DNA of 64,000 bases. It comes from Arcanobacterium ihumii. Lineage in GTDB: Bacteria > Actinomycetota > Actinomycetes > Actinomycetales > Actinomycetaceae. This document shows positions 56,901 through 60,310 of the stretch, piece after piece. The notes under the pieces were generated by a model. That model had not been told where the DNA came from. It worked only from the letters and a program-made list of their open reading frames with translations, and made no database searches. Numbering within the stretch: position 1 is the stretch's first letter; every line of letters starts with the position of its first letter. Both the position numbers and the translations under genes were made by a program. Location of the stretch: positions 434,001 through 498,000 of the forward strand of contig NZ_UWOS01000002.1 of the NCBI RefSeq assembly GCF_900604515.1, read 5' to 3'.

Positions 56901-57788
56901 TCAGTGAACGGACAATCCTCGTGAACGGAAGATTTCGCGCACAGCTTCTGTTTCTTCGTTAGAAGGCGGCGTCACATCGTCTAATTCATATTCCATTCCA
57001 AGGGTCTCCCACTTATCGCGCCCCATTTGGTGAAATGGCAAAACCTCAACACGCTCAACCGTTGACCACTTGCTAACAATGTCAGCAACAGCATTAACGT
57101 TTTCTGGTGAATCAGTCAAAGTTGGTACTAAAACGAAACGAATCCAGATCTTCTTTCCTGCAGCAGCTAGGCGATCACCAAATCGAAGTGTTGGCTCTAG
57201 CTCACGACCCGTCGTCTTCTTATAAATTTCGGGAATTCCGCTCTTGACATCGAGTAACACTAAATCAATGTTGTCCATCATGTCATCGGTAAGCGCTGAG
57301 CCGAGGAATCCAGAGGTATCAATTGCCGTATGAATACCCATTTCTTTACAACCACGCAATAATTTCGCCAAGAACGCTGGTTGAAACAATGGCTCACCAC
57401 CTGAGAAGGTGACTCCACCGTCGGTGGCCTTGAACACAGAGCGATAGCGCTTGATTCGATTCAGCAAGTCTTCAGTACGGACCGCTGTACCGTCACGCAT
57501 CTTCATCGTATCTGGATTATGGCAGTAGAGGCAGCGAAGTGGGCAACCGGCGAAGAACGTCGTCATACGAGTTCCTGGCCCATCCACTGCGGTAACGAGC
57601 TCCCAAGAATGAACCGATCCAACTTCTCCGGCACGAACTGCCATCATCTGTTCGGAATGACTCATCTGCCCGGCGAAAGTAACACCTGAAAGCCCAGCTC
57701 CTCCAAGTCGAGGAACTTCGATATCAAGAGGCTCGGGACGGTACTCCCCTGTTGAACCCTCAGTTGCCCGAGTCTTTAACATAGTCAT
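56901..57788 (-). CDS. pflA: Pyruvate formate-lyase activating enzyme (radical SAM)
   Basis: The 295-residue radical SAM enzyme generates the glycyl radical on PFL. The 4Fe-4S motif is CPLRCLYC with Cys82, Cys86 and Cys89. Downstream are GGVTFSGGEPLFQ and DTSGF. About 50 residues precede the region where E. coli PflA starts. ATG codons near residue 42 or 48 are alternative starts. It follows the small glycyl-radical gene after 68 bases. In this operon its substrate should be the separate 83-residue glycyl-radical protein, not a single full-length PFL. Confidence 0.95.
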   Translation of the reverse strand: MTMLKTRATEGSTGEYRPEPLDIEVPRLGGAGLSGVTFAGQMSHSEQMMAVRAGEVGSVHSWELVTAVDGPGTRMTTFFAGCPLRCLYCHNPDTMKMRDGTAVRTEDLLNRIKRYRSVFKATDGGVTFSGGEPLFQPAFLAKLLRGCKEMGIHTAIDTSGFLGSALTDDMMDNIDLVLLDVKSGIPEIYKKTTGRELEPTLRFGDRLAAAGKKIWIRFVLVPTLTDSPENVNAVADIVSKWSTVERVEVLPFHQMGRDKWETLGMEYELDDVTPPSNEETEAVREIFRSRGLSVH

Positions 57789-57856
57789 ACCGCCCCGATC
57801 CTTGAAATGAATGATTATAGGTCACTACACAGCTACAAGAGTTGCGTAGGTAAATC

Positions 57857-58108
57857 TCACATACCTTGGTGGAAGGTACGAGAGATGACGTCGAGTTGCT
57901 GCTCGCGGGTCAAACGAACGAAGTTCACTGCGTAACCCGAGACGCGCACAGTAAGCTGTGGGTATTTCTCTGGATGTTCCATAGCATCCTCAAGGGTGTC
58001 GCGGTTAAGAACGTTAATGTTTGCGTGATAAAGACCTTGGATACCGCCCTTAACTTCGCGGCTAGCCTTCATCGAAGCTTCGCGCTCTGCGTATGATTTT
58101 GTTGCCAT
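57857..58108 (-). CDS. Stand-alone glycyl-radical domain of pyruvate formate-lyase (GrcA-like, 83 aa)
   Basis: Residues 22-83 ([20 protein letters not shown] to SRTFHQGM) match the last 60 or so residues of full-length PFL. The radical motif RVSGYAV has Gly58 as the expected radical site. E. coli GrcA/YfiD (127 residues) is related but longer. The first 21 residues ([20 protein letters not shown]) are extra and highly charged. A strong GAGGAG precedes its ATG. Its residues begin almost exactly where the upstream 700-residue PflB stops, so it supplies the missing radical domain. Acts in the cytosol with PflB and PflA. Confidence 0.9.
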
Positions 58109-58163
58109 TGGATTCTCCTCAACAATCTTTATTTTTTACGTTTTTCCTATAACCGAGTCTAGC

Positions 58164-58193
58164 TGGTTGGCAGCATCTAAATGCCACCAACCA
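58164..58193. other. Hairpin between pflB and the glycyl-radical gene
   Basis: Arms 58164-58176 and 58181-58193 pair at 11 of 13 positions around CTAA. There is no T-run on the minus strand. It may stabilise the pflB mRNA or tune the ratio of the two subunits. Confidence 0.45.
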
Positions 58194-58207
58194 ACGTGTT
58201 CTCTGAC

Positions 58208-60310
58208 TCAGTCTTGCTTAATGAAGCCTGCATCCATGATGCCGACAAGGTTTTCGATTTGCTCCTGCTGGGTACGACCGAGCGAGGAAGGAACAATTGT
58301 GTTCGTCAATGAGATGCCATCGAGAGCATCGTCGTAGTCGAGTTTGCCGACCGAAAGCATCGAAGCAAGCATTCCGTGGGTATCTGCACCATTTTCTGGG
58401 TTTGCACCTGGAGCGAATGGAGTACCTGCACGATGACCCGATGGGAAGTTACCCGTTGCCTTGCCGTAGACGACGTTCGAAGTAATCGTCAAAACGGACT
58501 GGGTTGGAATTGCATCGCGATACATCGGAATGGACTTGATCTTGCTCATTACGGTGTGAACGATGGTTGCAGCGATATCATCTGCACGATCGTCGTCATT
58601 TCCGTAACGCGGGAAGTCGCCTTCGGTCTTGTAGTCAACGATTAGACCGGACTCGTCACGAATCGGAGTTACCTTTGCATACTTAATTGCGGAAAGCGAA
58701 TCGGCAACGATGGATAGGCCAGCGATTCCACAACCCATCGTGCGAACGATGTCAGAATCATGAAGAGCCATTTCCATTGCTTCGTAGGCGTACTTGTCAT
58801 GGCTGTAGTGGATGATGTTGAGTGCCTCAACGTAGGTTCCAACTACCCAATCAAGCATGTCTTCATACTTCTCCCAAACCTGGTCGAAGTCGAGTGGAGC
58901 ATCGCCCTCAACTGGGTCATATCCGGTAACGATTTGCTTACCGGACATTTCATCGCGTCCACCGTTCATAGCGTAGAGAAGAGCCTTAGCGGCATTCACA
59001 CGAGCACCGAAGAACTGCATCTGCTTTCCCACACGCATTGGGGAAACACAGCAAGCGATCGCGGCGTCGTCACCCCAGTGACAACGAATTTGCTCGTCCG
59101 CTTCGTACTGAATCGACGAGGTTTCGATCGAAACGCGTGCACAGAAGTTCTTGTATCCAACTGGGAGCTGAGCGGACCAGAAAATCGTGATGTTTGGCTC
59201 TGGTGCTGGGCCGAGGTTCATCAGAGTCTGGAGCAAGCGGAAAGAAGTCTTGGTAACGAGGGTACGACCGTCTTCTGAGAAGCCACCGTCCGACCAAGTC
59301 GCCCAGTAAGGATCACCGGAGAAGATCTGGTCGTAAGCTTCGGTACGAAGGAAACGAACAATTCGGAGCTTAATAACAAGTGCATCGATAATTTCCTGAG
59401 CTTCAGACTCTGTAAGGATTCCACGCTTGAAGTCACGCTCGAAGTAAACATCAAAGAAGCCGGAGAGACGACCAAAGCTCATCGCTGCTCCGTCTTGGGA
59501 CTTCACAGAAGCGAGATAACCGAAATAGGTCCACTGTACTGCTTCTTTAGCAGTGGTTGCTGGTTCAGAAATATCAAAACCGTATGATTCAGCCATACGC
59601 TTGAGTTTCTTGAGTGCCTTGATCTGCTCTGAGTGCTCTTCGCGATAACGAGCCCAGTGCTCTGAGAAAGGCTGATCAGCAACGGCGTCGCGAGCAGCAG
59701 CTTTCTCGTTGATTAGATAGTCAACACCGTAAAGTGCAACACGGCGGTAATCGCCGATGATGCGGCCACGGCCGTATGCGTCTGGCAAACCGGTGATGAT
59801 GTGCGAAGAACGAGCTGCACGAATGCGTGGAGTGTAGATATCAAACACGCCTTCGTTGTGGGTCTTACGGTACTTCGTGAAGATTTCCTTCACGCGTGGG
59901 TTAACCTCTTTGCCAGCTTCGTTAATAGCCGCCTCAACCATGCGCCATCCGCCGTTAGGCATCATCGCACGCTTCAATGGAACATCGGTTTGAAGACCAA
60001 CGACGACGTCGTCTTCTTCACAGATGTATCCGGGGCCGAACGCGTCGACATCGGCGGGGGTGTCTACGTCAACGTCGTAGACACGCTTTTCACGCTCAAC
60101 CGAAAGGTACTTCTCATCGAGAGTCTTCCATAGATTAAGTGTCTTGTCTGTTGGTCCAGCCAAGAAGGAATCATCACCTTCATAAGGTGTGTAGTTTTCT
60201 TGGATGAAGTCACGGACATCAATTTCTGATTTCCAGGTTTCTCCGGCGAAACCTTCCCATCCAGCAAACTGTGCCTCTTCAGCTGAGTTTAGACCTGCAT
60301 TCACGCTCAC
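58208..60310 (-). CDS. pflB: Pyruvate formate-lyase catalytic chain lacking the glycyl-radical domain
   Basis: The 700-residue product aligns with the catalytic barrel of PFL (about 760 residues in E. coli), which splits pyruvate plus CoA into formate and acetyl-CoA without oxygen. The active-site pair is Cys420-Cys421 in AIACCVSPMR. The N-terminal region (EEAQFAGWEGF), PRIRAARSSHIITGLPDAYGRGRIIGDYRR and SVLTITSNVVYGKATGN-PSGHR are canonical. The chain ends NLVGIMDAGFIKQD, just before the position of the glycyl-radical domain, which has no match here. That domain is encoded separately 99 bases downstream. GTG start with AAGGAG upstream. Confidence 0.95.
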   Translation of the reverse strand: MSVNAGLNSAEEAQFAGWEGFAGETWKSEIDVRDFIQENYTPYEGDDSFLAGPTDKTLNLWKTLDEKYLSVEREKRVYDVDVDTPADVDAFGPGYICEEDDVVVGLQTDVPLKRAMMPNGGWRMVEAAINEAGKEVNPRVKEIFTKYRKTHNEGVFDIYTPRIRAARSSHIITGLPDAYGRGRIIGDYRRVALYGVDYLINEKAAARDAVADQPFSEHWARYREEHSEQIKALKKLKRMAESYGFDISEPATTAKEAVQWTYFGYLASVKSQDGAAMSFGRLSGFFDVYFERDFKRGILTESEAQEIIDALVIKLRIVRFLRTEAYDQIFSGDPYWATWSDGGFSEDGRTLVTKTSFRLLQTLMNLGPAPEPNITIFWSAQLPVGYKNFCARVSIETSSIQYEADEQIRCHWGDDAAIACCVSPMRVGKQMQFFGARVNAAKALLYAMNGGRDEMSGKQIVTGYDPVEGDAPLDFDQVWEKYEDMLDWVVGTYVEALNIIHYSHDKYAYEAMEMALHDSDIVRTMGCGIAGLSIVADSLSAIKYAKVTPIRDESGLIVDYKTEGDFPRYGNDDDRADDIAATIVHTVMSKIKSIPMYRDAIPTQSVLTITSNVVYGKATGNFPSGHRAGTPFAPGANPENGADTHGMLASMLSVGKLDYDDALDGISLTNTIVPSSLGRTQQEQIENLVGIMDAGFIKQD

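Follow-up and report, generated by a model that had tools for sequence, protein, structure and literature searches.

Can a glycyl radical enzyme work permanently as two separate chains? Pyruvate formate-lyase (PFL) serves as a model for the study of protein radicals and of the oxygen damage done to them, and this question is raised by a locus of Arcanobacterium ihumii that lies in a window of 64,000 nucleotides (contig NZ_UWOS01000002.1, positions 434,001 to 498,000). On the minus strand, pflB is followed by a small gene and by pflA (Table 1). The radical loop RVSGYAV, which includes Gly58, is present on the 83-residue product of the small gene only, and the PflB chain carries no glycyl radical loop. 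Following established knowledge of PFL, we take Cys420-Cys421 of the large chain to be the catalytic pair and Gly58 of the small chain to be the radical glycine. A sequence-only reading of the window had described this arrangement (a PflB of 700 residues with the Cys420-Cys421 pair, an 83-residue RVSGYAV protein with its own GAGGAG site behind a gap of 99 nucleotides, and then pflA), and every element of that description was confirmed. Our analysis points, with a probability of about 0.85, to a pyruvate formate-lyase that gene fission has turned into an obligate two-subunit enzyme.

In an alignment with E. coli PFL, PflB corresponds to chain positions 7–693; the small protein aligns from residue 21 onwards, with positions 697–759, so that the two parts have zero overlap, as had been expected. 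The sequence-only reading had also placed the end of PflB where the glycyl radical domain (GRD) should start; the stop is there, and the break can be located more precisely inside the Pfam Gly_radical profile, of which PflB matches positions 1–65 and the small protein positions 50–106. PflB passes the cut-off of the PFL equivalog model TIGR01255 (1007.8 bits, cut-off 994.2). The small protein passes the cut-off of the NCBIfam equivalog GrcA2 (NF008341; 157.9, cut-off 145) and does not pass that of the E. coli-type GrcA model TIGR04365 (93.9, cut-off 170). All 184 chains aligned, split and fused alike, have the adjacent-cysteine site ACCVS.

The break is a real property of the genome. The two open reading frames (ORFs) share a frame in A. 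ihumii but are separated by two stops, TGA and TAA. We compared this locus with those of 60 relatives of the same family, a non-random sample chosen for a listed separate small match. In all 60 the protein is broken at the same point, and the large chain ends in a short tail that varies. Across the 61 loci the small ORF measures 81–84 residues, while the gap ranges from 4 to 227 nucleotides (median 61) and the frame relation between large and small ORF is 1, 2 and 0 in 33, 17 and 11 loci. Because two stops separate the ORFs and the same break recurs in all three frames in 60 of 60 relatives, the split is no sequencing error, an origin that the sequence-only reading had allowed for. That reading had also regarded loss of the gap in close relatives as evidence against it; the gap persists, although its length is not conserved. 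The split genes are followed by pflA in the fetched relatives, and both break point and gene order are kept throughout. Furthermore, pflB and the small gene are both under strong purifying selection, with nonsynonymous divergence (dN) of 0.02–0.03 against synonymous divergence (dS) of 1.2–2.0 for both genes alike when A. ihumii is compared with two congeners; dS is partly saturated for pairs more distant than these.

The split enzyme is also the only PFL of the organism. The A. ihumii genome (2.0 Mb, rated 100% complete) encodes a single PF02901 protein, and searches with PF02901 and TIGR01255 found no full-length PFL in it that could do the work instead. Its sole other Gly_radical match is a 732-residue single frame on another contig, which appears to be NrdD, judging from motifs only (its Cys4 site, and an ORF of activase type beside it). 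We searched 62 split genomes (A. ihumii, the 60 fetched relatives and one order-mate) with TIGR01255. Each of the 62 yields a single large match and a single small one, and no match spans both parts in any of them, so none has a full-length PFL or a PFL with its own glycyl residue; the cut-off of the model is passed in 43 of them, in some only when both parts are counted. Additional weak matches in three genomes (G148, G136 and G027; at most 174 bits) are not full-length PFLs. Since a full-length PFL is missing in 62 of 62 genomes, both genes are under purifying selection and the break is common to 60 relatives, the genomic data support two-subunit function well. The genome also contains aceE (1301.6 bits) and no pyruvate:ferredoxin oxidoreductase over the cut-off (best 21.9 bits), which makes PFL the likely anaerobic route to acetyl-coenzyme A.

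That the enzyme always works as two subunits, as the sequence-only reading had it, holds for the split genomes but not for the family. A Gly_radical match is found in 135 of its 151 genomes: at least 70 have a C-terminal-only match, at least 32 match the full profile (frames of about 755–812 codons), and the two sets are disjoint among the matches listed. Within the genus, five of ten genomes carry the split and the other five show no PFL-type match among the matches listed; three congeners without split PFL (G098, G123 and G137) encode a different glycyl radical enzyme, seen as a Gly_radical match within a frame of about 900 codons. Order-wide, the GrcA2 cut-off is passed by 42 of 297 genomes, and the 20 loci fetched from this survey comprise 11 split and 9 fused PFLs, two of the split ones (G630 and G656) having looked fused in the survey listing. 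We further scanned named genomes beyond the near relatives, with counts that apply among the matches listed. At least 80 loci were found, 68 of them fused and 12 in short frames. Five of these 12 are Corynebacterium loci with the A. ihumii type of split, three are loci of Bacillota metagenome-assembled genomes with the second split type described below, and three resemble truncated or interrupted fused genes; the remaining one is a small gene whose fetched flank contains no pflB. A relative of the glycyl radical domain also occurs in 1533 of 50,697 phage records, many of them enterobacterial (for instance PP925842.1:29374-29610).

The second split type was found at 21 loci (L093–L113) in two families, probably of Coriobacteriia, within the phylum of A. 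ihumii. Its large chain terminates in ALGK plus a tail of 16–52 residues, with Cys in 19 of the 21 tails; Cys-rich examples are DCSCC and DCACEAD. The break falls about 15–20 positions upstream of that in A. ihumii, and the 83-residue small chain carries a helix that the A. ihumii type keeps on the large chain. The TIGR01255 match ends at 663–670 in the second-type large chains and mostly at 676–690 in the first type. All four second-type small proteins tested pass NCBIfam GrcA3. Split PFL is the only PFL in 21 of 21 second-type genomes and in the four Bacillota genomes checked, two of which contain an extra unlinked small gene, a possible true spare (G552, C44:22849-23082; G555, C22:25852-26079, L188). 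PDB entry 38lb aligns with a Cys-tailed second-type large chain up to the tail and 38la terminates at ALGK; neither was among the matches listed from the April 2026 structure library.

A tree built from 88 large chains places the first type within the PFLs of Actinomycetota and the second within those of Bacillota. Forcing both together changes the log-likelihood by -449 units (approximately unbiased test, p-AU 1e-49), and a common origin is thus rejected. A similar split therefore seems to have arisen separately in another lineage, and such an independent second split argues that the two-part arrangement works. The clade of the first type is strongly supported, has a long stem branch (0.78) and includes fused members (L130, L203-L205, L215 and L216), with the fused L201, L202 and L214, probably Bifidobacteriaceae, at its base. 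The first type requires two changes on this tree, and a single clade of all split rows is not rejected (p 0.786). In the fused members of the clade the junction reads DAG-xGx-GL[YF]H and does not vary in length, which, as an argument rather than a test, favours an ancestral fused state and hence fission; these members also have in common with the small chain the GRD motif L[YF]HANINV. Taking both types together, we lean, at slightly better than even odds, towards at least two fissions at two break points that gave rise to obligate two-subunit PFLs, in which the oxygen-destroyed part would be a cheap, separately translated, exchangeable subunit of 83 residues, the first type would have replaced the covalent bond with a new N-terminal docking helix, and GrcA2 and GrcA3 would be essential subunits.

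How could the two chains of A. ihumii perform the reaction? By sequence, the large chain keeps the PFL body and the Cys pair and lacks the glycyl residue, while the strand that it is missing, the Gly58 radical loop and the final helix are on the small chain. The small chain would dock in the groove that is filled in E. coli PFL by the covalent C-terminus. PflA would place the radical on Gly58, from which it would pass to Cys421 and Cys420, and pyruvate and coenzyme A would yield acetyl-coenzyme A and formate. Cleavage by oxygen would hit the small chain, at Gly58, and leave an intact large chain that could accept a new small chain without the 696–733 stub that E. coli YfiD must displace. Such a swap of a damaged radical subunit, which the sequence-only reading had proposed, is a reasonable inference from work on E. 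coli YfiD.

Docking may be held partly by a helix specific to the split enzymes. The domain of the small chain is preceded by the motif [TS][YF]xERxxxMKAxR..GG, with R, M and R at i, i+4 and i+8 invariant in 62 of 62 sequences, and the motif is absent from 30 aligned fused PFLs. It is predicted, with modest confidence, to be helical, at residues 6–19 of the small chain modelled alone and at residues 740–753 of a read-through model in which both parts form one artificial chain with the stops read as Gly. We regard it as a candidate docking helix. Its origin as a diverged copy of the helix that precedes the glycyl domain of PFL is unsupported: MAFFT places it there, but the column-shuffle P is 0.096. 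The read-through model has a mean predicted local distance difference test (pLDDT) score of 84.8, with linker 699–737 below 50, and a predicted template modelling score (pTM) of 0.87; superposed on E. coli PFL over 808 columns, it reaches a template modelling score of 0.95–0.96 and a root-mean-square deviation of 2.0–2.5.

Several points weigh against an obligate two-subunit PFL born by fission. The fit of the model to E. coli PFL is consistent with it but was obtained by joining both parts artificially, and homology would predict it anyway; the small protein alone folds poorly in prediction (mean pLDDT 68.4, pTM 0.48). The docking role of the motif is suggested by conservation only, and stable docking of the two chains must be assumed. 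According to the accessible text of PMC8683613, E. coli PFL truncated to residues 1–695 (tPFL) bound full-length YfiD undetectably and took up the radical poorly, 0.5 µM against 15.9 µM for cPFL with YfiD and 2.7 µM with shortened YfiD; a natural split would thus need better docking. The GRD of A. ihumii (53 residues) is 81% identical to that of the fused sister L130, whereas its identity to fused PFLs beyond the clade reaches 89%; a GRD tree of 53 columns, with one starred branch, does not resolve. Because neither settles the matter, fission from a member of the clade rests on the shared L[YF]HANINV motif and on the large-chain tree. Finally, 41 positions fixed in 66 split large chains are rare in 48 fused PFLs, among them Trp339 at the site of E. 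coli Glu336 and FPSGHRAG in place of TPDGRRAG, and PFL activity itself is therefore not beyond doubt; 40 of the 41 are also present in L130.

These residues, together with the long stem branch of the clade, could indicate a two-subunit enzyme with substrate or kinetics altered relative to PFL. We consider this improbable: the A. ihumii chain passes the PFL equivalog cut-off and the Cys pair is universal among the aligned chains. Formate secretion by Actinomyces naeslundii (PMC6493303) and Mobiluncus mulieris (PMC12208373), described in the accessible parts of the reports, would also speak against it if their genomes carry this clade. In M. mulieris and in Fannyhessea (formerly Atopobium) vaginae, formate drops by about 90% under the PFL inhibitor hypophosphite (PMC12208373). 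M. mulieris belongs to the Actinomycetaceae and F. vaginae to Coriobacteriia; the formate of the three species would be in vivo evidence if they carry the split. For Varibaculum cambriense, one paper reports in its accessible part that no PFL was found (PMC4177395).

Still less probable is a spare part of the GrcA/YfiD type that repairs only large chains whose own C-terminus was lost. The GrcA2 match and the second, unlinked copy of the second-type small gene in the two Bacillota genomes would fit such a role, but there is no intact PFL to repair in any of the 62 split genomes, the score stays below the E. coli-type GrcA cut-off, and a separate small match occurs in 0 of the at least 32 fused-PFL genomes, among the matches listed. 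The contrast with GrcA drawn by the sequence-only reading stands in that no intact PFL is present here, and is less sharp in that the NCBI label of this protein, GrcA2, already denotes an 'autonomous glycyl radical cofactor'. A single full-length chain made through stop readthrough or programmed frameshifting, for which the shared frame in A. ihumii and the good read-through model could speak, is rejected on account of the two stops and the occurrence of all three frames among the 61 loci. In addition, the small gene has a Shine-Dalgarno-like site in front of it in 81 of 83 loci, a set that takes in the second type.

Table 1 Features of the split pyruvate formate-lyase locus of A. ihumii, with positions in the window.
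Feature	Position	Strand	Description
pflB, large catalytic chain	58208..60310	-	700 aa, GTG start; Cys420-Cys421; ends at E. coli PFL 693 plus short tail
Small glycyl-radical subunit gene	57857..58108	-	83 aa, Gly58; NCBIfam GrcA2; N-terminal helix motif (predicted), then equivalent of E. coli PFL 697-759
pflA, radical SAM (S-adenosylmethionine) activating enzyme of PFL	56901..57788	-	295 aa; TIGR02493 317.5 bits, cut-off 231.75
Gap between pflB and small gene	58109..58207	-	99 nt; TGA terminates pflB, second in-frame stop TAA within gap
GAGGAG ribosome-binding site of small gene	58115..58120	-	Read from sequence
RNA hairpin directly 3' of pflB	58162..58195	-	15 bp, no T run after; also in two congeners; weak, three sequences

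The hairpin behind pflB recurs in two congeners (L009 and L022) with pair-preserving changes, one pair being G-C, C-G and U-A. Fourteen of its 15 pairs are standard in every sequence, and its covariation score is reached by 79 of 500 shuffles, so that covariation is suggestive only. A hairpin after pflB is not a general element: z < -2 was obtained in only 16 of 50 gaps of at least 35 nucleotides (median -0.94, mononucleotide shuffles). The A. ihumii hairpin could set unequal amounts of large and small chain.

A natural enzyme cut at the hinge of E. coli PFL would permit direct tests of the movement of the radical domain in and out during activation, of which form of the domain, free or bound, is the target of the activase, and of whether separating the fragile part pays in microaerobic life. 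The 'autonomous cofactor' genes of many genomes, including those of Corynebacterium and of human-associated groups, probably encode subunits that the main enzyme cannot do without, and inventories that seek a full-length PFL can misjudge PFL content.

Compared with known systems, the two A. ihumii chains share with E. coli PflB (PDB 1h16, 2pfl and 1mzo) the sequence over both parts, the Cys pair, the RVSGYAV loop, the fold and the type of activase; the E. coli enzyme is one chain, whereas that of A. ihumii is cut between 693 and 697. With E. coli YfiD/GrcA (PDB 6owr; residues 55–125 of 127 matched) the small chain shares the form of a small free protein with a glycyl radical domain. GrcA backs up an intact PFL, which the A. 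ihumii protein does not have beside it, and its N-terminal region is longer (residues 1–60, accessible text of PMC8683613) than the short conserved motif of A. ihumii. The GrcA2 cut-off is passed by the A. ihumii protein and by one from Corynebacterium; the family is named an autonomous cofactor, and its matches give no sign that the partner PFL is without its own glycine. GrcA3 (NF038360) and PDB 38la/38lb represent the second split type, from which A. ihumii differs in break, tail and branch of the PFL tree. No paper on PFL as an obligate two-chain enzyme was found in the open-access literature (bioRxiv outside scope), and the accessible part of PMC11528403 holds no YfiD, GrcA or split glycyl radical enzyme. 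The parts were thus already catalogued, the obligate two-chain PFL is the new element, and the recent entries 38la/38lb suggest that others are at work on split PFL.

The closest counterpart is artificial. In the accessible text of PMC8683613, purified E. coli PFL is cut by protease at 690–695, and Andorfer and colleagues found E. coli PFL cut at 695 to be active with YfiD minus residues 1–60 (kcat 204 per s). The A. ihumii cut falls at this protease-sensitive site and at the artificial one. The pair of tPFL and truncYfiD is therefore divided almost as in A. ihumii and is fully active once the radical is in; it is engineered, weakly activated and without the N-terminal motif that the small chain of A. 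ihumii naturally carries.

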